Source: a virus. From it: a stretch of 23,912 bases of DNA. The stretch covers positions 1 to 23,912 of the IMG/VR virus record IMGVR_UViG_3300046450_001092. The stretch is one strand, 5' to 3'. Position numbers and translations under genes: made by a program. Below the pieces are notes generated by a model. It searched no databases. It was not told the origin of the DNA and worked only from the letters and a program-made list of their open reading frames with translations. Positions within the stretch are counted from its first letter, which is position 1. Every line of letters starts with the position of its first letter. Below, piece after piece: positions 4,532-23,579 of the stretch.

Positions 4532-4879
4532 TCACAGAGCAATACTCATTGCTGTTGAAAAACCCTTAGAAGCATGATCACCATCGCCAGTTAAATCATT
4601 TAACATAGCGGCTGTAAGTCGTAACTCAATAGTATCCCCGGACAGCGCAGAAGCAGCTGCTGTATTATCTTGTGCACGTACACATGTGAAGGTATTTACC
4701 GATACACTAGTTACTTTAACAACTTCAATATTAGCAAGACTAACTATAGTTAGATACATGTGATCCCCAGCTGCTAAGTTAGGGAAGCTAAGGACACTAG
4801 TTACACTAATAGAGGTAGCAGTATCTGTTATACCAGCGCTCAGTGTGGTAGTAGCATTATTTGTAAATTTAACTGCCAT
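4532..4879 (-). CDS. Putative tail/virion structural protein
   Basis: 115 residues, ATG after AGGAGAATATTA. It opens with MAVKFTNNATTTLSAGITDT, followed by TSISVTSVLSFPNL and VVKVTSVSVNTFTCVRAQD, and ends near IELRLTAAMLND. This pattern (a short beta domain describing an uneven start, a ThrCysValArgAlaGln strand and a LRLTAA end) recurs in phage tail regions next to fibre genes. It is likely a structural beta-domain protein; an adaptor role is a guess. Spacing to its neighbours is 10-33 bases, so it belongs to the leftward virion operon. Confidence 0.6.
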   Translation of the reverse strand: MAVKFTNNATTTLSAGITDTATSISVTSVLSFPNLAAGDHMYLTIVSLANIEVVKVTSVSVNTFTCVRAQDNTAAASALSGDTIELRLTAAMLNDLTGDGDHASKGFSTAMSIAL

Positions 4880-8963: not shown

Positions 8964-9401
8964 TTATTCCTTTGTGTTATTTATTATAACGGATGTCCAT
9001 GTAGCTTGAGTTATTAATACGTTATCAACATATGCTTTACCAGAAAATTTAGCATATTTGGATAAGTTAGTAGTGATGTTTATATCAAATTTTATTTGAT
9101 CTCCAGGAAGTGCAGGTTTAATAAATTTAACTTTATCTATTGTAGTTACATAAGCTAATTGTCCTTCAACTAAATCAGCACAACCAAATAGTAGTCCTCC
9201 AGATTGAAACATCCCCTCTAATATAAGTACTCCTGGCATAATAGGAAAATTAGGAAAATGCCCACTAAAATAAGGCTCGTTATGTGATACATTTTTTAAA
9301 GTAACTATATTTGTATCAGTTTTACTTATAACCTTATCTACCATAAGAAACGGATATTTATGTGGAAGTACTTTAAGTATTTCTGAAACGTTATTTTTCA
9401 T
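8964..9401 (-). CDS. fabZ: FabZ-like 3-hydroxyacyl-ACP dehydratase
   Basis: 145 residues from ATG at 9401, chosen because GAGG sits 7 bases upstream; two earlier in-frame ATGs lack a binding site. FabZ is the hot-dog-fold enzyme that removes water from 3-hydroxyacyl-ACP in bacterial fatty acid synthesis and acts as dimers or hexamers in the cytosol. The family signature is complete: LPHKYPFLMVDKV near the N-terminus, NEPYFSGHFPNFPIMPGV with catalytic H48, and ILEGM with E62 (spacing 14, as in E. coli His54/Glu68). Then come IDKVKFIKPALPGDQIKF and KFSGKAYVDNVLITQA. Length equals that of bacterial FabZ. The start overlaps the end of the 254-aa gene by 11 bases. In a phage it is an auxiliary metabolic gene that could alter host acyl chains; this role is inferred. 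Confidence 0.9.
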   Translation of the reverse strand: MKNNVSEILKVLPHKYPFLMVDKVISKTDTNIVTLKNVSHNEPYFSGHFPNFPIMPGVLILEGMFQSGGLLFGCADLVEGQLAYVTTIDKVKFIKPALPGDQIKFDINITTNLSKYAKFSGKAYVDNVLITQATWTSVIINNTKE

Positions 9402-10155
9402 CAATGACCTCATAAGTTGTTTCAACAGGCGGCGTATTCACCTTCCGAGCTAATATTTCACTATGTGCTATCTCCTTAGCACTGGATTGCCCATTTAAGA
9501 TCATCTTTAGTTGTTGCTGTGCAAGTGCTTTAGTAGTTGCACGTAGATCCTCTACTATGTCATTACTGTAGTTAATATCAATATCTAGTTTAGCGACAGC
9601 AGGAGCTGCTAGGTTGCTAATTAAACTTTCTGCAGCTTTCTGCCTTACTAGCTCTGATTTAGCTGTGTGCATCAGCTCTGCTTGTACGTTGATAGCTTCC
9701 TGATACACTCCCGCATTTAATATATGCGTAGGCACCATAGTTTGTTCCATGATCTTAGTTATGAGCCCTGTTTTACTATAGTTATCTGCAAAACTAGCTA
9801 TATAGGATCCAGAAGCCCCTTTATCTATTAAATTCTGATATCGATCCGGGAATACTTTACTATACGCAGTAGATGACTTATCTCCCATTAACTTAAGGGA
9901 CACAAACTTAACAGCATTTACATAAGCTGCTAATGAGTATTTACCGGTAGACAACACTGCAGCATACGTTAATGTATTATCCCGAAATACTCGTCTTAAC
10001 TCTGAATCAGGCTCTGAATTAATAACTTCTACAACAGCATCAGTTATATGCTTACGGAAGCGCTTATCCGGAAGGGCCCCTTCTAACATACCTTTAGTTA
10101 AATGATCTGTTGTTTCTAAATTAGTATCTACATCTGCTAAATTAGTTAATTGCAT
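9391..10155 (-). CDS. Hypothetical protein, possible terminase small subunit
   Basis: 254 residues, ATG after GAGGCTAATA and inside the end of the upstream gene (14-base overlap). The sequence is mainly helical, with charged N-terminal helices (LTKGMLEGALPDKRFRKHIT), a middle with KTGLITKIMEQTMVPTHILN and a long C-terminal helical part (ELVRQKAAESLISNLAAPAV, DDLRATTKALAQQQ-like). There are no catalytic motifs or membrane segments. Position three genes upstream of terminase and the helical make-up would suit a small terminase subunit or a DNA-packaging partner, but I do not recognise the family. Confidence 0.55.
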   Translation of the reverse strand: MQLTNLADVDTNLETTDHLTKGMLEGALPDKRFRKHITDAVVEVINSEPDSELRRVFRDNTLTYAAVLSTGKYSLAAYVNAVKFVSLKLMGDKSSTAYSKVFPDRYQNLIDKGASGSYIASFADNYSKTGLITKIMEQTMVPTHILNAGVYQEAINVQAELMHTAKSELVRQKAAESLISNLAAPAVAKLDIDINYSNDIVEDLRATTKALAQQQLKMILNGQSSAKEIAHSEILARKVNTPPVETTYEVIDEK

Positions 10156-10477
10156 TATTAGCCTCGTTCCATTTAATAATTAACGCATTATGTGATGAGT
10201 CTTCCGCGTAACACTCATGCGGAGATACCATCCACTTGTGGTCATCTAATCTTACTATGAAATTTTTTTCTACTAATTCTACCCAGTACTTCTCCCAAGT
10301 ACGGTAGTCTGTTATCCACTTTACTGTCCTAATAAACTTATGTTTGTCTATCTCATTGTCTTTATTAGCTAATACCATAAGTGGTAAAAGTAGTGCTTGC
10401 CCGGTACGAGACAACTCATCTATACGAGACGGCTCATCATCTTCTATTTCACAATATGTATTAATGTATTTACTCAT
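10142..10477 (-). CDS. Winged-helix-like protein
   Basis: 111 residues from ATG at 10477, whose first base is the last base of the upstream stop (TGATG); an in-frame TTG one codon earlier is less likely. The layout resembles a small winged-helix DNA-binding protein: a helix with LSRTGQALLLPLMVLANKDN, a central helix pair around KWITDYRTWEKYWVELVEKN, then a wing and FIVRLDDHKWMVSPHECY. The last segment parallels the MLNPDVMF end of the RepL-like protein at 13028, so the two may be distant relatives. It may be a regulator or replication-linked protein; confidence is modest. Confidence 0.5.
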   Translation of the reverse strand: MSKYINTYCEIEDDEPSRIDELSRTGQALLLPLMVLANKDNEIDKHKFIRTVKWITDYRTWEKYWVELVEKNFIVRLDDHKWMVSPHECYAEDSSHNALIIKWNEANNAIN

Positions 10478-11247
10478 CAAGGTATATGTCTAAATGTTAA
10501 ACTTATTCTACGTCCTAATGGCGCACTTACTGAATGCTTGTATTTATTCTGGAAGTCACCTTCAGGCATTACGTAACAACTTCTATCTGTTAGTTTAATC
10601 TTAAAATATTTACTACGATCATTCCTAGCTATAGTAGCAACTGTTGTTTCTCCTAAACTGATAGTTGCTACAGCCCCTACAATTCCGTTATTTTCCGTGA
10701 AAACAGCTTCATCATCTGAGTGAAGGTCTAGACCCTTATTAGTATATAAATTAACTAATAAACTATTAAAATAGTTATTAGAAAACACTAACTGGTTTTC
10801 TATATCTCTAGCAATGTTTTGAAATAAAACAGGCATTTCCTGAGCTTCGTGCCTTAAATCTGTATACGCGTATTCAACACAACCAAATGCTTGTTCTTCA
10901 TCTAGATTAGTTGATACATCTACAGGACCATACCAAGTAGCTATGTGGTTACGATTGGTATGAAAAATATACCCAAGTTCCTGAGTTTTTCCTCCCCAAT
11001 CAGCTCTTTCTTCCCGTTTACCCGTTAATTTTTGCCAAATTTTAGGAGCATACTGCTGTAACCATGCTGCTTTTTGTTTTCTAGTCATACTGCTTGCTGC
11101 TTTGGTATTACCTCGGCTGATTTTTTCCTGTTTTACAACTGAGTCCCAAAGACTATCAAAGTCTCGTAAAACAGAATGTTTTTTGTTATCAATAGATCCT
11201 AAAATTATTTCTTGGTCATCTACAAGTATGATCTTATCATTAAGCAT
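10477..11247 (-). CDS. AlkB-like 2-oxoglutarate/Fe(II) dioxygenase
   Basis: 256 residues. Enzymes of this family use Fe(II) and 2-oxoglutarate to oxidise methyl groups on DNA or RNA bases, or to modify proteins. The C-terminal half carries the AlkB pattern: NSLLVNLYTNKGLDLHSDDE supplies H176 and D178 for iron, AVATISLGE is the next strand, YVMPEGDFQNKYKHSV supplies H238, and RRISLTFRHIP contains the arginines (R247, R253) that bind 2-oxoglutarate. The N-terminal 90 residues are basic and helical and are not part of the catalytic fold. The gene lies between two coupled genes in the leftward chain. It could repair methylated phage nucleic acid or counter host methylation; the substrate is unknown. 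Confidence 0.85.
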   Translation of the reverse strand: MLNDKIILVDDQEIILGSIDNKKHSVLRDFDSLWDSVVKQEKISRGNTKAASSMTRKQKAAWLQQYAPKIWQKLTGKREERADWGGKTQELGYIFHTNRNHIATWYGPVDVSTNLDEEQAFGCVEYAYTDLRHEAQEMPVLFQNIARDIENQLVFSNNYFNSLLVNLYTNKGLDLHSDDEAVFTENNGIVGAVATISLGETTVATIARNDRSKYFKIKLTDRSCYVMPEGDFQNKYKHSVSAPLGRRISLTFRHIP

Positions 11248-11248
11248 T

Positions 11249-11428
11249 TTATTTCTTCTCTTTTTTCCATCGCGTAAGCTGAAGGTACATTAAATGATTT
11301 TTTCTTTTTTGCGTTTTTCGTAACTTAGCTTGATAAACGTGATGCGCTGAAGGAGATCTAATAACACTTGTTACTAGTAACATAACAAACAAAGGCCACA
11401 ATCCAGTTAAATATGTCTTAAGAGTCAT
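11249..11428 (-). CDS. 59-aa single-span membrane protein with basic tail
   Basis: ATG at 11428 overlaps the end of the radical SAM gene by 11 bases; stop TAA at 11251-11249, two bases before the AlkB-like start. Residues 7-24 (LTGLWPLFVMLLVTSVIR) form one membrane helix. The rest (HHVYQAKLRKTQKRK, RWKKEKK) is strongly basic and probably faces the cytoplasm or binds nucleic acid or membrane lipids. No family is recognised. The binding site is weak (GAAAAG), so it is probably translated by coupling. Confidence 0.6.
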   Translation of the reverse strand: MTLKTYLTGLWPLFVMLLVTSVIRSPSAHHVYQAKLRKTQKRKNHLMYLQLTRWKKEKK

Positions 11429-13031
11429 TTAACACTTTTCTACTAATTAAGCGCATTCTTATAATAATTACAATCCAACGACAAAGTTTCCAAATAGTTT
11501 CAGAAAAATATTTTGGATAGAAAACAAGAGGCGATTCCATTGGTAAAGTAGGTCGCCTATCTTTACGTGATTTACGGCGGAAAACCCCACCTTTAGTAGG
11601 ATGAATCTTTTCAATACCAATACAACCTTTAAACATAGTAATTAGGGTAACTAAGTCTAGTGCTTTACTGGAACTTGTACCAGTTGCCATCATACGTTTT
11701 AAAGTAGTTTTGGTATGCTCATATGTGTAATAAGCATTCCAAGCTTTATAATAAGTTTCTTCCCAATTTACTTTTGACATTTTAGGATGTGCAGTAACTG
11801 CATGATTTAAATCATACATGTTTAAATCTTCATCCATAGCAACTCCAGCAGTGTATAACTTCTCATGATCTTTTGAACCAGGAAGAGGCGTAAGACAAAG
11901 AAACGATATTAGATCCATAGGAAGTTCTTTTTTAATAATTTCAATGTCGCGCAAGATTGATTCTTGAGTATCATTAGGGAAACCTAAAATATACCCGCAA
12001 GAGGTTATAATTCCAGCCTCATCTAAAGCAAGCAACATTTTACGGTAATCAGAAATTTTATTTTGCCGCTTATCGACACTTAAAAGAGCATCAGAATTAA
12101 TATTTTCTAAACCAATAAAAACCTGTGTAACACCTGCGCGTCTTGATTTTTCAATAAACCCTGGCAACTTATAGGCAAGAGTATCAATCATAAAAGAAAA
12201 CTCGATTTTTAATTTATGAACTTCACGCAACTCAATAAACATATCTAAAATGCTTTCCCAATTCTTATTTCGTGCAAAATCATCATCAGAAATAAAAAAT
12301 AAATGTAAGCCCTGTTTAACGTTAAAGCGGATTATGCGCTCAATACTTTCAACTGACCTGTTTCTTGATGTATGTCCTTGAACATTTATAATCGTGCAGA
12401 ACGAACAAGTAAAAGGGCAACCACGTCCAGCATCAAAACTAGCTGTTAAACCTGCCGTCAGACGAACTCTATCTGCCGGAATAAATGGCATTGCAGTATT
12501 ACTAATATCAGGTAAATCATCTAAAAAGTTGTAAATTGGTTTAAGTTCGTTATTAGCCGCATCAATTAAAACTTGTCCAAGTCTGTCTTCAACTTCTCCT
12601 GAAAACATTGAAACACCAATGTCTAAAGCCTTTTGCATGTAAGCATCAGGCTCTTTAATCATTGCCAACACTCCTGATATATGAAAACCTCCCATAGCAA
12701 CTTTAATACCCATTGCTCGTAATGGTGTAGCAATATCTAATGCACGGGGAAATTGACTTGATTGTACACCAACAAGCATAAGCATTCCGTCATCTGCACT
12801 TTTTATTAAAGAAGCAATTTTATCTGTATTAATGTGTGTATTTGTTTCGTCAAATACATGAAGGTCTATTTTGACATTTTTACCTAATACCCTAGTCTTT
12901 TTACATTCAGTAGCTAAACCATAAAGACAAGCTAGTGAATTTGCCGGCAGCCAAGACCTAAACCACTGAATTACATATCCGTCATCGTCATAATGTGAAG
13001 GTGCCACCAAAACAAGGCTGAATGTTTTCAT
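11418..13031 (-). CDS. B12-binding-type radical SAM enzyme
   Basis: 537 residues; the ATG overlaps the stop of the RepL-like gene (ATGA). Radical SAM enzymes split S-adenosylmethionine at a [4Fe-4S] cluster to start radical chemistry. The cluster motif CPFTCSFC is present (C205, C209, C212) in GRGCPFTCSFCTIINVQ. Residues 50-120 form a Rossmann-like half (LVGVQSSQFPRALDIA, GIKVAMGGFHISG) in the place of the cobalamin domain, but the usual DxHxxG B12 ligand motif is not obvious. The TIM-barrel part shows FFISDDDFARN, VFIGLENIN and SCGYILGFPNDT, as in BchE/hopanoid-type enzymes. A C-terminal extension of about 130 residues ends in a hydrophobic basic helix (WKLCRWIVIIIRMRLI) that may bind membrane. 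Substrate unknown; a lipid or cofactor is plausible. Confidence 0.85.
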   Translation of the reverse strand: MKTFSLVLVAPSHYDDDGYVIQWFRSWLPANSLACLYGLATECKKTRVLGKNVKIDLHVFDETNTHINTDKIASLIKSADDGMLMLVGVQSSQFPRALDIATPLRAMGIKVAMGGFHISGVLAMIKEPDAYMQKALDIGVSMFSGEVEDRLGQVLIDAANNELKPIYNFLDDLPDISNTAMPFIPADRVRLTAGLTASFDAGRGCPFTCSFCTIINVQGHTSRNRSVESIERIIRFNVKQGLHLFFISDDDFARNKNWESILDMFIELREVHKLKIEFSFMIDTLAYKLPGFIEKSRRAGVTQVFIGLENINSDALLSVDKRQNKISDYRKMLLALDEAGIITSCGYILGFPNDTQESILRDIEIIKKELPMDLISFLCLTPLPGSKDHEKLYTAGVAMDEDLNMYDLNHAVTAHPKMSKVNWEETYYKAWNAYYTYEHTKTTLKRMMATGTSSSKALDLVTLITMFKGCIGIEKIHPTKGGVFRRKSRKDRRPTLPMESPLVFYPKYFSETIWKLCRWIVIIIRMRLISRKVLNDS

Positions 13032-20043: not shown

Positions 20044-20679
20044 ATGGCAAGAATTGGAGATTACGAATTAAGAAACATAAGAAATAGAATATTAGATGAT
20101 TTGTATTTCAAAAGAGAAGAAGAATTTAAAGTTCGTCAAATTGCTATAGCTAAGCAAAGCAGAGAATTGTATTTAAAACCGTATCAATATTTAATAGATC
20201 AATTACCAGTTGAAATGATAAGTCATGATAGAGATTACCAATTAAGAGTTAAATATACCCCAAATGAAGATAAATCAGATATTTCTGTAGATGAAAAATG
20301 GGTTTACAAATCAGAAACTCCAATAATAAATCCAGTAGATGCTAGTAGTAGAGGTAGTTACAATCACACGCCTGAAAATATACCAGATAAAAGTCTATGG
20401 AATATTACTGAGCAACTTTGTAAAGAAATGCTAGCTTTAAAAGCTGAAAGAGATGAACAAAATCATTATTTACTACAAACAACTAAAATGTATACAGGGT
20501 CTGTGCAGTTAAGAAAAGCATGGCCAGAGTCATTACATAAATATTTACCTAATGAACCAGTTAAACCAGAACGTAAAATTAGAAATGCAATTACAGGTAA
20601 ATTAGTAAAAAGTCCTGATCCTGTAGTACCTGAATCCCTTAAAACTCGAATGACCACTAATTTATTAGAGGACAATTAA
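20044..20679 (+). CDS. Hypothetical 211-aa protein
   Basis: 211 residues, ATG after TGGAGGAATAAATA. Highly charged: an N-terminal coiled helix (NIRNRILDDLYFKREEEFKV), a middle strand part (DYQLRVKYTPNEDKSDISVD), helices with ELCKEM-like and LALKAERDEQNHYLLQT, and a Pro- and Lys-rich end (NEPVKPERKIRNAITGKLVK). No catalytic motif. Function unknown; position before the MoxR cassette suggests a link but does not prove it. Confidence 0.65.
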   Translation: MARIGDYELRNIRNRILDDLYFKREEEFKVRQIAIAKQSRELYLKPYQYLIDQLPVEMISHDRDYQLRVKYTPNEDKSDISVDEKWVYKSETPIINPVDASSRGSYNHTPENIPDKSLWNITEQLCKEMLALKAERDEQNHYLLQTTKMYTGSVQLRKAWPESLHKYLPNEPVKPERKIRNAITGKLVKSPDPVVPESLKTRMTTNLLEDN

Positions 20680-20818: not shown

Positions 20819-21838
20819 ATGTTTGAGGTAAATGCAGATGAGTTAAAGGAGGCTCTTATTAGAGACTTCAAGGTAGGGCTTACTCCGATGGTAGCATCTA
20901 GCCCAGGCATGGGAAAATCAGATATCATTCGCAGTATAGCTGCTAAATTTGAACTAAAGGTAATTGATTTTAGAGTATCTCAGTGTGAACCAGTAGATAT
21001 GCAAGGTTACCCAGGTGTGAAAGATGGAAGAATGACATTTCATATTCCTGAATATTTTCCAATTGAAACAGATAAGGTACCGGATGGTTATGATGGATGG
21101 TTACTATTTCTAGATGAATTTAACTCAGGGAATAAGCAGACAGAGGCTGCTGCCTATAAGTTAATATTAGATAGAGAAGTCTATAAGCATAAATTACATC
21201 CTAGATGTTTAATTGCTGCGGCGGGTAACTTAACTACTGATAGAGCTATTGTAAATACTCAAAGCACAGCTACTACATCTAGACTAAATCATTACCGTAT
21301 GCGAGTTGATCATAAAGTATGGATTGATTGGGCAAACTCCCATGATATTGATCATCGTATTATTTCATTAATTAAATTTAAACCAGAGTTACTTCATAGG
21401 TTTGATACTTCAACAAATGAATTAACATTTCCCTGTCCTCGTACATGGGAATTTGCTTCTAAAGTAATTAAAGGAGAAGAGACTATAGATCATATTAATA
21501 AAATACGATTAGCAGGTACTGTTGGTGAAGGTGCTGCAGTAGAGTTAGCAACTTATGCTGAGATCTATCAGAATTTACCTACTATTGAACAGATACTTGC
21601 TAATCCTAGATCAGGATGGAAAGTACCTAAAGAACCAAGTGAACAGTATGCAGTTACAACAATGCTATCTCACAACAGTACGTTGAAAAGCATTAATCAA
21701 ATAATAGTTGCTATCAATCGACTACCAGTAGATTTTCAGGTAATCACTTTTAAAGATATTTATAAGAGAACACCTGAATTAAAAAATCATCCTGTTATTA
21801 CCGATTGGATAGCTAAGCATGCTCACATTATATTTTAA
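20819..21838 (+). CDS. MoxR-type AAA+ ATPase
   Basis: 339 residues, ATG after AAAGGAGGCACAATAC. MoxR ATPases are ring-forming chaperone-like enzymes that usually work with VWA-domain partners. Visible parts: Walker A SSPGMGKSD (G30, K33, S34), pore/strand region FRVSQCEPVDMQGYPG, Walker B LLFLDEF (D99, E100), sensor 1 AAAGN (N137) and an arginine-finger candidate in TTSRLNHY (R155). The C-terminal lid spans about 190-339 with CPRTWEFASKVIKG. Length suits the family. The metallopeptidase-like gene at 23605 is the expected type of partner, but the two are separated by the 5-nucleotide arrays and two unknown genes. Confidence 0.9.
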   Translation: MFEVNADELKEALIRDFKVGLTPMVASSPGMGKSDIIRSIAAKFELKVIDFRVSQCEPVDMQGYPGVKDGRMTFHIPEYFPIETDKVPDGYDGWLLFLDEFNSGNKQTEAAAYKLILDREVYKHKLHPRCLIAAAGNLTTDRAIVNTQSTATTSRLNHYRMRVDHKVWIDWANSHDIDHRIISLIKFKPELLHRFDTSTNELTFPCPRTWEFASKVIKGEETIDHINKIRLAGTVGEGAAVELATYAEIYQNLPTIEQILANPRSGWKVPKEPSEQYAVTTMLSHNSTLKSINQIIVAINRLPVDFQVITFKDIYKRTPELKNHPVITDWIAKHAHIIF

Positions 21839-21846
21839 TATTTACG

Positions 21847-21894
21847 CAGTCCAGTTCGGCTCGTTAGCTTGGAGTTAAGTGAGATAACACATCG
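21847..21894 (+). repeat. 5-nt-period array 1 (10 triplets)
   Basis: Triplets CAG, CAG, CGG, CGT, GCT, GAG, AAG, AGA, ACA, TCG follow each other every 5 bases, with spacers that all begin with T or C. It starts 9 bases after the MoxR stop and is the least regular array. Confidence 0.7.
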
Positions 21895-21939
21895 TAATTT
21901 TTACCCCTAATAAATTTAACAATAACGTTAGGTATCACC

Positions 21940-22017
21940 TAGTATAGTACAGCTCAGTTCAGTATTGTGAAATTCAGCGTAATTAAATTGAATGTAGCGT
22001 AATACCATATCACAAGG
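21940..22017 (+). repeat. 5-nt-period array 2 (16 triplets)
   Basis: Sixteen triplets in one register: TAG, TAG, CAG, CAG, CAG, TTG, AAA, CAG, then TAA, AAA, GAA, TAG, TAA, CCA, TCA, AGG. All fifteen spacers start with a pyrimidine. The array ends in AAGGATTTT. Confidence 0.9.
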
Positions 22018-22048
22018 ATTTTATCCCCTAAAAAATTTATAGAAACCT

Positions 22049-22136
22049 TAGCCTAGTTTAGTTAAGTGTGATCGAGTAGAGTACTGTGTAATTCAGTACC
22101 GTAGGATTAGTTGGAATAGGATGTCTCATCTCAAGG
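22049..22136 (+). repeat. 5-nt-period array 3 (18 triplets)
   Basis: Eighteen triplets in register, beginning TAG, TAG, TAG, AAG, TGA, GAG, GAG and ending TCT, TCT, AGG. All seventeen spacers start with a pyrimidine. Same end as arrays 2 and 4 (CA then AGGATTTT). Confidence 0.9.
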
Positions 22137-22183
22137 ATTTTATTTACCCCTAATAAATTTAAAAGCAAAAAAGAACTATGTCG

Positions 22184-22241
22184 CGGTATAACTCGGTCTA
22201 GTTTAGTTCAGTGCGATAATGTTAAATCTCATATCTCAAGG
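22184..22241 (+). repeat. 5-nt-period array 4 (12 triplets)
   Basis: Twelve triplets in register: CGG, TAA, CGG, TAG, TAG, CAG, CGA, ATG, AAA, TCA, TCT, AGG. All eleven spacers start with a pyrimidine. Followed by the ACCCCTAACAAA tail. Confidence 0.9.
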
Positions 22242-22268
22242 ATTTTTTTACCCCTAACAAAATTATCA

Positions 22269-22341
22269 CAGTTTCGCCAAGTTGAATGTAGCGTGATTGG
22301 GTTAAGTGCAGCGCAATTCAGTAACACAAGTCAACATAACT
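22269..22341 (+). repeat. 5-nt-period array 5 (15 triplets), leader of the 198-aa gene
   Basis: Fifteen triplets in register, including CAG, AAG, GAA, TAG, TGA, GGG, AAG, CAG, CAA, CAG and ending ACA, AGT, ACA, ACT. All spacers start with a pyrimidine. It is followed by an A-rich stretch and AAAGGAGAATCAAA before ATG at 22367. Confidence 0.9.
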
Positions 22342-22366
22342 TTAATTTTAAAAAAGGAGAATCAAA

Positions 22367-22963
22367 ATGTATGTAACAGCAGAGTGTCATTTAACAGGTG
22401 CAGGTATTTACAGTCAATCAAGACCATATCAAGTAGAAAAAAAACCTAGAGAAATTCCAGCAGACTATGAAAAACGAACATGGAAAGAAAGGATGCATCT
22501 TAGTGAAGTAAATAAAGGGAAAATTGTAATTCCAGGAATGCAATTTAAAAATAGCTTAGCAGAATGTGCAAAGTATATGTCTACACAGATTCCAGGTAAA
22601 GGAAAAGCGACTTATACTAAACACTTTGAAGCTGGTGTTATGCCTATGGGTCCTATGGAATTAGATATTAAAGCAGATGACGTTATAGGTGAATGGGTAT
22701 TTGTTCCTTCTAGCGGAAAACGAGGAGACGGTAATAGAGTCTATAAATGTTTTCCAAAAATAGATAGTTGGTCAGGAATTATGAACTTTACAATTTTTGA
22801 TCATACTATTACAGAAGACGTTTTTAAAGAACATCTTATGCAATCAGGACAATTCATTGGTATCGGTAGATGGCGACCTCGTAACAATGGAATGTATGGA
22901 AAATTTGGAGTAGATAAAGTTATTTGGAAAGAGCATGAAAGTGTAATAGCTAAAGCAGCCTAA
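22367..22963 (+). CDS. 198-aa phage protein, possibly RAMP/Cas7-like
   Basis: 198 residues, ATG after AAAAGGAGAATCAAA. I know similar unnamed proteins from phages by their conserved blocks: YSQSRPYQVEKKP, DYEKRTWKERMH (34-44), GKIVIPGMQFKNSLAE (51-66), IPGKGKATYTKHFEAG (75-90), YKCFPKIDSWSG (126-137), and GQFIGIGRWRPRNNGMYGKF (161-180). The IPGMQFKNSLAE and GxGRxRPxNxGxYGxF elements resemble the helix-start and glycine-rich segments of Cas7/RAMP RNA-binding proteins. No Cas genes or CRISPR are nearby, so this is a hypothesis from pattern. Its gene follows array 5, and array 6 starts four bases after its stop. Confidence 0.65.
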   Translation: MYVTAECHLTGAGIYSQSRPYQVEKKPREIPADYEKRTWKERMHLSEVNKGKIVIPGMQFKNSLAECAKYMSTQIPGKGKATYTKHFEAGVMPMGPMELDIKADDVIGEWVFVPSSGKRGDGNRVYKCFPKIDSWSGIMNFTIFDHTITEDVFKEHLMQSGQFIGIGRWRPRNNGMYGKFGVDKVIWKEHESVIAKAA

Positions 22964-22966
22964 TCA

Positions 22967-23049
22967 AAGTGCGTTTAAATTGCGTGGAGTATGATTTGGT
23001 AGTGTGAAATTCAGTGCAGTGTAATTTAGTATAATCTAACAACTTAAGG
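22967..23049 (+). repeat. 5-nt-period array 6 (17 triplets), leader of the 172-aa gene
   Basis: Seventeen triplets in register from AAG at 22967 to AGG at 23047, including GAG, TGA, CAG, CAG, TAA, TAG, TAA, TAA, ACT. All sixteen spacers start with a pyrimidine. The last triplet AGG is the ribosome binding site AAGGA of the gene at 23061, so the array and the binding site share one register. Confidence 0.92.
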
Positions 23050-23060
23050 AATTTTTTAAT

Positions 23061-23579
23061 ATGACTAATCCAACAGTAAATGAAGCAAGAAAACCTTTTT
23101 GTCGAGCAATAGAAACTACAAGTCTAATACAAGAATTAGAAAAATATAGAGATAGTGAGGAAATCCCTTACGATACTTTAACTAAACCAGCAATGGGGAA
23201 TTGCGCACCAGGTGGAATTAAACATAGTTTTCTTCAATCTGCTAGAACAATCCTATTTAAAGAAAAAGGAATTGAATTTAAAGCAATACCTAACATAGGG
23301 TTATTACGCATGTCTGATTCTGATAAAATAGTAAAAACTAAAAAAGTTTTACCTAGTTATAACAAAAAAGTTAAGAAAGATATGGCTAGACTAGCTTCAG
23401 TAGAATTCGATAATTTATCTAGAGATGAGCAGTTATGCCATCAAGTAAATTTTTCAATTTTAAATTGTCTTCAAGAAGAAAGTTCAGGAACGGGAATACA
23501 AAAAGTTAATAAAACAATAGCTAGTAATCCTCATCCTGAAAGATTAGCACTAGAAGAAACTCTTAAACTATTTATGTAA
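23061..23579 (+). CDS. Hypothetical 172-aa protein
   Basis: 172 residues, ATG 10 bases after AAGGA. Basic and mainly helical: an N-terminal ARKPFCRAIETTSLIQELEK, a central GNCAPGGIKHSFLQSARTIL with IPNIGLLRMSDS, and a long C-terminal helical part (KKDMARLASVEFDNLSRDEQ, NFSILNCLQEE). No catalytic motif is clear. It lies between the 198-aa protein and the metallopeptidase-like protein, so it probably belongs to the same cassette. Function unknown. Confidence 0.65.
   Translation: MTNPTVNEARKPFCRAIETTSLIQELEKYRDSEEIPYDTLTKPAMGNCAPGGIKHSFLQSARTILFKEKGIEFKAIPNIGLLRMSDSDKIVKTKKVLPSYNKKVKKDMARLASVEFDNLSRDEQLCHQVNFSILNCLQEESSGTGIQKVNKTIASNPHPERLALEETLKLFM

Follow-up and report, generated by a model that had tools for sequence, protein, structure and literature searches.

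The pentameric arrays found in a 23.9-kb virus record (the window, that is, the whole stretch of DNA analysed) are very probably the variable parts of the guide RNAs (vrRNAs) of a VIPR system carried by an N4-like podovirus. The arrays are read as vrRNAs because they lie beside a homologue of Vipr and a member of the vap family, and because period-5 arrays flank vipr in 88 of 89 loci, the window included. VIPR, described in a 2026 preprint, is a relative of CRISPR that lets one phage silence other DNA by means of gapped pairs of guide letters; it consists of a phage-encoded ancestral RAMP protein (Vipr), an accessory gene (vap) and vrRNAs, each built from 9-16 YNNGG repeats followed by a tail (PMC13142463). 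Double-stranded DNA is recognised by pairing of the NN letters at a 1-nt skip, and transcription of competing elements is repressed by the complex; the targets found are satellites and prophages, and RNA expression, the RNA-protein complex, DNA binding and repression were measured in the SUSP1 and P. fulva systems (PMC13142463). The kind of system seen here is, with high confidence, one already described, present as a variant with an A-purine-pyrimidine (A-R-Y) word in an N4-like phage.

The repeat locus is bordered on the left by an ATPase gene (20819-21838) and on the right by a DUF2201 metallopeptidase gene (from 23605), between which lie two genes and two repeat-rich gaps. Judged by a single-subunit RNA polymerase that matches N4-like families, the source virus is an N4-like podovirus, whose nearest cultured relative by this protein is Alteromonas phage vB_AemP_PT15-A5 (34%). 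Elsewhere in the window, positions 20044-20679 give a weak match to Nmad5 (nucleotide-modification associated domain 5, E 0.003), and the minus-strand half encodes a Radical SAM superfamily protein (11418-13031, -). A FabA-like hydroxyacyl dehydratase domain, unusual for a phage, is found at 8964-9425 (-), and a member of the 2OG-Fe(II) oxygenase superfamily (2OG-FeII_Oxy_2, AlkB-like family) at 10477-11247 (-).

An initial annotation, made from the letters of the window, had described six arrays of triplets with a strict 5-nt period, and this period is confirmed. Autocorrelation at lags 5, 10 and 15 lies far above that of dinucleotide-preserving shuffles in the gap at 21839-22366 (z = 7.8, 0/1000 shuffles) and is likewise exceeded by 0/1000 shuffles in the gap at 22964-23060 (z = 4.7), so that the shuffled control proposed at the time comes out in favour of the period in both gaps. 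The arrays do fall within the span first given, 21839-23060, but they are confined to these two intergenic gaps, and the gene between them (22367-22963) shows no period-5 autocorrelation. Both coding sequence and a simple tandem repeat are rejected, as had been argued before, since the sequence varies at a fixed period and a control period gives no signal.

A hidden Markov model (HMM) without indels resolves six arrays, all on the + strand, with 10, 18, 15, 10, 11 and 14 units in a second run. The number of arrays thus agrees with the earlier reading, whereas the total of 78 units replaces the 88 triplets counted by eye, a surplus probably due to continuation into the conserved 3' tails. The HMM places array 1 at 21844..21895 (10 NN-ARY units), array 2 at 21919..22013 (18-19 units), array 3 at 22048..22122 (15 units), array 4 at 22183..22232 (10 units), array 5 at 22268..22327 (11-12 units) and array 6, between vipr and vap, at 22966..23040 (14-15 units). 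The register first assigned, NAG plus a YN spacer, is one base off. By information content, the unit consists of a variable dinucleotide NN, with entropies of 1.87 and 1.95 bits, and a constant word A/G-G/A-Y (A-R-Y, AGY/AAY), with 1.51, 1.32 and 0.78 bits; the variable dinucleotide corresponds to the second base of the former spacer and the first base of the former triplet. The pyrimidine said to open every spacer is present in 78/78 units, where it forms the last base of the constant word.

Arrays 1 to 4 each lead into a conserved tail, AUC..AAGGA-(AU-rich)-CCCCUAA.AAAUUUA. On the + strand, these tails are located behind array 1 at 21896..21918 (AATTTTTACCCCTAATAAATTTA), array 2 at 22014..22041 (AAGGATTTTATCCCCTAAAAAATTTATA), array 3 at 22123..22162 (GTCTCATCTCAAGGATTTTATTTACCCCTAATAAATTTAA) and array 4 at 22233..22267 (ATCTCAAGGATTTTTTTACCCCTAACAAAATTATC). 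Array 5 continues into the vipr leader and array 6 into that of vap. RNAalifold, which considers nested pairing and places pseudoknots outside its scope, predicts no nested pairs in the tail. Because Rfam gave no match in the window and five relatives, no hammerhead ribozymes are seen in these sequences.

The gene between the two gaps, vipr (22367..22963, +), encodes a 198-aa protein that matches no Pfam family. It matches phrog_4652 (E 4.9e-9), the family that also contains the Vipr of SUSP1, and profiles built from 56 and from 7 of its relatives retrieve PDB 36pp, the SUSP1 Vipr, at E 3.3e-10 and 2e-5 as the sole convincing PDB chain. Comparison of the protein family with SUSP1 Vipr using hhalign gives a probability of 97.4, and the AlphaFold model (pLDDT 94) is matched by Cas7 and Csm3 chains in Foldseek. 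Family membership and predicted fold identify the 198-aa protein as a homologue of Vipr, a Cas7-like RAMP. The second gene, vap (23061..23579, +), encodes a 172-aa accessory protein with a predicted winged-helix DNA-binding domain plus helices, and its family adjoins vipr in 72/89 loci. The AlphaFold model of Vap (pLDDT 89), for which winged-helix matches are weak throughout, suggests a winged-helix DNA binder. Between Vap and SUSP1 Vap1, the hhalign probability is 10.

The related loci comprise 81 viral and 7 genome loci, or 89 with the window; the lone locus in which arrays do not flank vipr, L079, begins at the vipr gene itself. Across these loci, 2% of bases exceed the period-5 threshold compared to 0.001% for a period-7 control, and 387 arrays are called by the HMM. 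At the same place in related phages the period of 5 is kept and the sequence is different, the outcome under which the period reading stands. The unit of the relatives is again NN plus a triplet with a final pyrimidine (97% of 6047 units), and lineages differ in this triplet: of the 72 non-redundant loci, 31 have GGC, 11 GAC, 7 CGC, 5 CTC and 3 GTC, with AGT, AAT and GTT in 2 each, besides others; CAC also occurs in relatives. L007 and other loci, for instance, use GAC, CTC, CGC, GTT and CAC. With few exceptions, the word and vipr share a strand, a constant relative orientation that fits an RNA. Among the alternatives of the initial annotation was recognition of an RNA by the adjacent RAMP-like protein, and this is the reading supported by the Vipr homologue with arrays at its side.

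If the message lies in the dinucleotides and the triplets serve as a scaffold, related arrays should keep the former and lose the latter, and orthologous arrays in the window's clade do retain 95-100% of NN letters with triplets at random identity. Between the array at 4642 of locus L008 and that at 3662 of L012, 22/22 NN letters agree and triplet positions agree at 0.64/0.64/0.55; for the array at 21846 of the window and its counterparts in L009/L011, the values are 14/14 and 0.29/0.43/0.57. Random units of the clade give a chance triplet identity of 0.45/0.45/0.60, and, as the orthologous pairs were picked by NN similarity, it is the triplets at chance level that are still informative. The NN core of array 1, cc-tc-tc-ag-gg-ta-ga, has 7/7 pairs in common with L009/L011, and that of array 5, gt-gt-tg-ta-gc-gc, recurs in L002, L003, L004 and L009. 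This sequence comparison points to dinucleotides as message and triplets as scaffold, and constitutes evolutionary evidence independent of the experiments in the preprint.

The 1-nt skip in NN pairing is supported by the loci of relatives rather than by the window's own guides. When arrays are compared with their own locus, 24 matches of ≥18/24 letters occur at a 1-nt skip, 6 at 0 and 7 at 2, counts that include some near-copy loci. After removal of near-copies, the skipped base falls on the codon wobble position in 14/17 of the 1-nt-skip matches inside ORFs (p = 5e-5 vs 1/3; p = 0.002 vs weak matches). In three loci, L069 (5811), L060 (304) and L059 (3436), vrRNAs agree with genes carried by their own phage at 20-21/24 letters with the skip at wobble, possibly reflecting self-regulation or an attack on homologues in rivals.

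Those of the window's own guides that were searched yielded no target in viral contigs, clade genomes or gammaproteobacterial genomes. Scanning viral contigs for exact matches to decoded guides returned one match at chance level (18 specified bases, off wobble, with mismatched flanking pairs) and otherwise zero, clade guides showed no 1-nt-skip excess in clade genomes, and two conserved window-clade guides gave 0 and 1 matches in 94 gammaproteobacterial genomes, as in controls. A guide array located after vap and conserved among three relatives (L002 4267-4331, L008 4642-4711, L012 3662-3726), which is absent from the window itself, behaves differently. Its antisense reads (F/L)(I/M)(D/E)L(F/L)AGPGG(I/M), motif I of cytosine-5 methyltransferases, and with ≤2 mismatches it matches 20/369 gammaproteobacterial genomes vs 1 for a reversed control. 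All ten of the matches examined are in frame and place the skip at wobble; the ORFs read (F/I/V)IDLFAG(I/P/L)GG, and PF00145 was detected in 3/3 ORFs tested. These matches are suggestive, short of proof, of a cytosine-5 methyltransferase as the natural target of this guide, and no stronger term is used because about five conserved guides were decoded and two others gave nothing beyond the control level. A related guide in L009 and L011 reads A-[DE]-P-G-G-L-G. For the L002/L008 guide, a RecA-like reading was also tried and was not confirmed.

Since triplets at regular spacing invite comparison with TRAP, the initial annotation had drawn the parallel with this ring protein, which binds (G/U)AG triplets two bases apart in leader RNA and thereby attenuates the downstream gene. 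The short triplets and their similar spacing are indeed shared, but the constant word is A-R-Y in the window and GGC, GAC, CGC, CTC, GTT or CAC in relatives, not (G/U)AG; the gene next to the arrays encodes a Cas7-like protein, no TRAP is present among the domains found in the proteins scanned, and orthologous arrays conserve dinucleotides and not triplets. There is hardly any probability left for a TRAP-type explanation. A DNA half-turn array, another alternative offered at the time, would be a double-stranded DNA site at which a filament or partition-like protein reads every half turn; it could draw on the match of 5 bp to about half a helical turn and on the predicted winged-helix DNA-binding fold of Vap. 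Such a site is not needed to explain the arrays, and it is considered highly improbable: the orientation of the word relative to vipr is constant in nearly all loci, the information resides in the dinucleotides, which are conserved while the common word drifts, and a DNA-site model does not predict gene matches with a 1-nt skip at wobble.

A variant compatible with the VIPR reading is that the arrays are vrRNAs which regulate the phage's own genes instead of attacking other elements. The own-gene matches in L069, L060 and L059 speak for it, yet they carry mismatches, as expected if the true target is the homologue in a competitor; guides of the window clade show no surplus of matches to the genomes of that clade, and satellites and prophages are the targets in the preprint (PMC13142463). 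Self-regulation is regarded as unlikely.

Under the preferred VIPR reading, each array, 10-19 NN + A-R-Y pentamers long, would supply the variable portion of a small guide RNA, and the conserved 3' tail would follow in most of them. Vipr subunits would coat the vrRNA side by side, presumably one per 5 nt, gripping the A-R-Y word, and the exposed NN pairs would read double-stranded DNA while skipping one target base between pairs. Transcription of whichever gene is matched would be blocked by the Vipr-vrRNA complex, with Vap, as a predicted DNA binder, probably assisting. By analogy with the characterised VIPR systems, this phage would use its arrays in the same manner.

A puzzling sequence can now be identified as a putative RNA-guided DNA-recognition locus, which brings an N4-like phage whose word is A-purine-pyrimidine within the range of VIPR. 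The word changes 30 times on the Vipr tree. As strong raw associations, its position 1 co-varies with Vipr residues F129 and V113 (phi 0.75 and 0.72) and its position 2 with R168 (phi 0.58), which lose significance after kinship control, supported independent tree pairs being too few. It is hypothesized, tentatively and with considerable doubt, that Vipr lineages have split into repeat alphabets (GGC, GAC, CGC, CTC, GTT, CAC, and AGY/AAY in the window clade) determined by a handful of residues, the first base by 113/129 and the second by 168, near a glycine-rich loop, so that the systems are mutually orthogonal; as part of the same proposal, the window clade would also retain a guide directed at genes for cytosine-5 DNA methyltransferases, aiming VIPR at host or prophage modification genes and not at rival phages alone. 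The diversity of words and the co-varying residues make RNA reading by Vipr and the orthogonality of systems directly testable. Should the methyltransferase guide prove genuine, the VIPR machinery may serve phages against host modification genes.

Compared to known systems, the locus resembles TRAP sites in having short triplets at regular spacing in a probable RNA, and differs in protein fold, in the word and in that the information lies in the spacers, not in the words. With Class 1 CRISPR-Cas it shares the Cas7/Csm3 fold of Vipr and, presumably, a protein filament on a guide RNA; the period is 5 instead of 6 nt, the guide letters are discontinuous, no CRISPR-type repeats and spacers and no further cas genes are seen at the locus, and no cas domains occur among the proteins scanned. 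From the characterised VIPR systems it differs in its word, A-R-Y here and GGY there. The preprint admits 'a related consensus' to GGY (PMC13142463), and the locus is kept out of VIPR type II (SUSP1, P. fulva) because its word is not GGY. Unlike in these systems, six arrays are located upstream of and between the genes in an N4-like podovirus, Vap has no clear homology to SUSP1 Vap1, and the tail, a pseudoknot in the SUSP1 clade, is conserved without pairing predicted by RNAalifold, which covers nested pairs. The likeness to the VIPR systems of SUSP1 and the P. fulva prophage nevertheless extends to a homologous RAMP, a neighbouring vap, arrays in the gaps around the genes, pentamers with a variable NN and a pyrimidine-ending constant word, a 3' tail, a phage host and, in relatives of the window locus, the 1-nt skip aligned with the wobble position.
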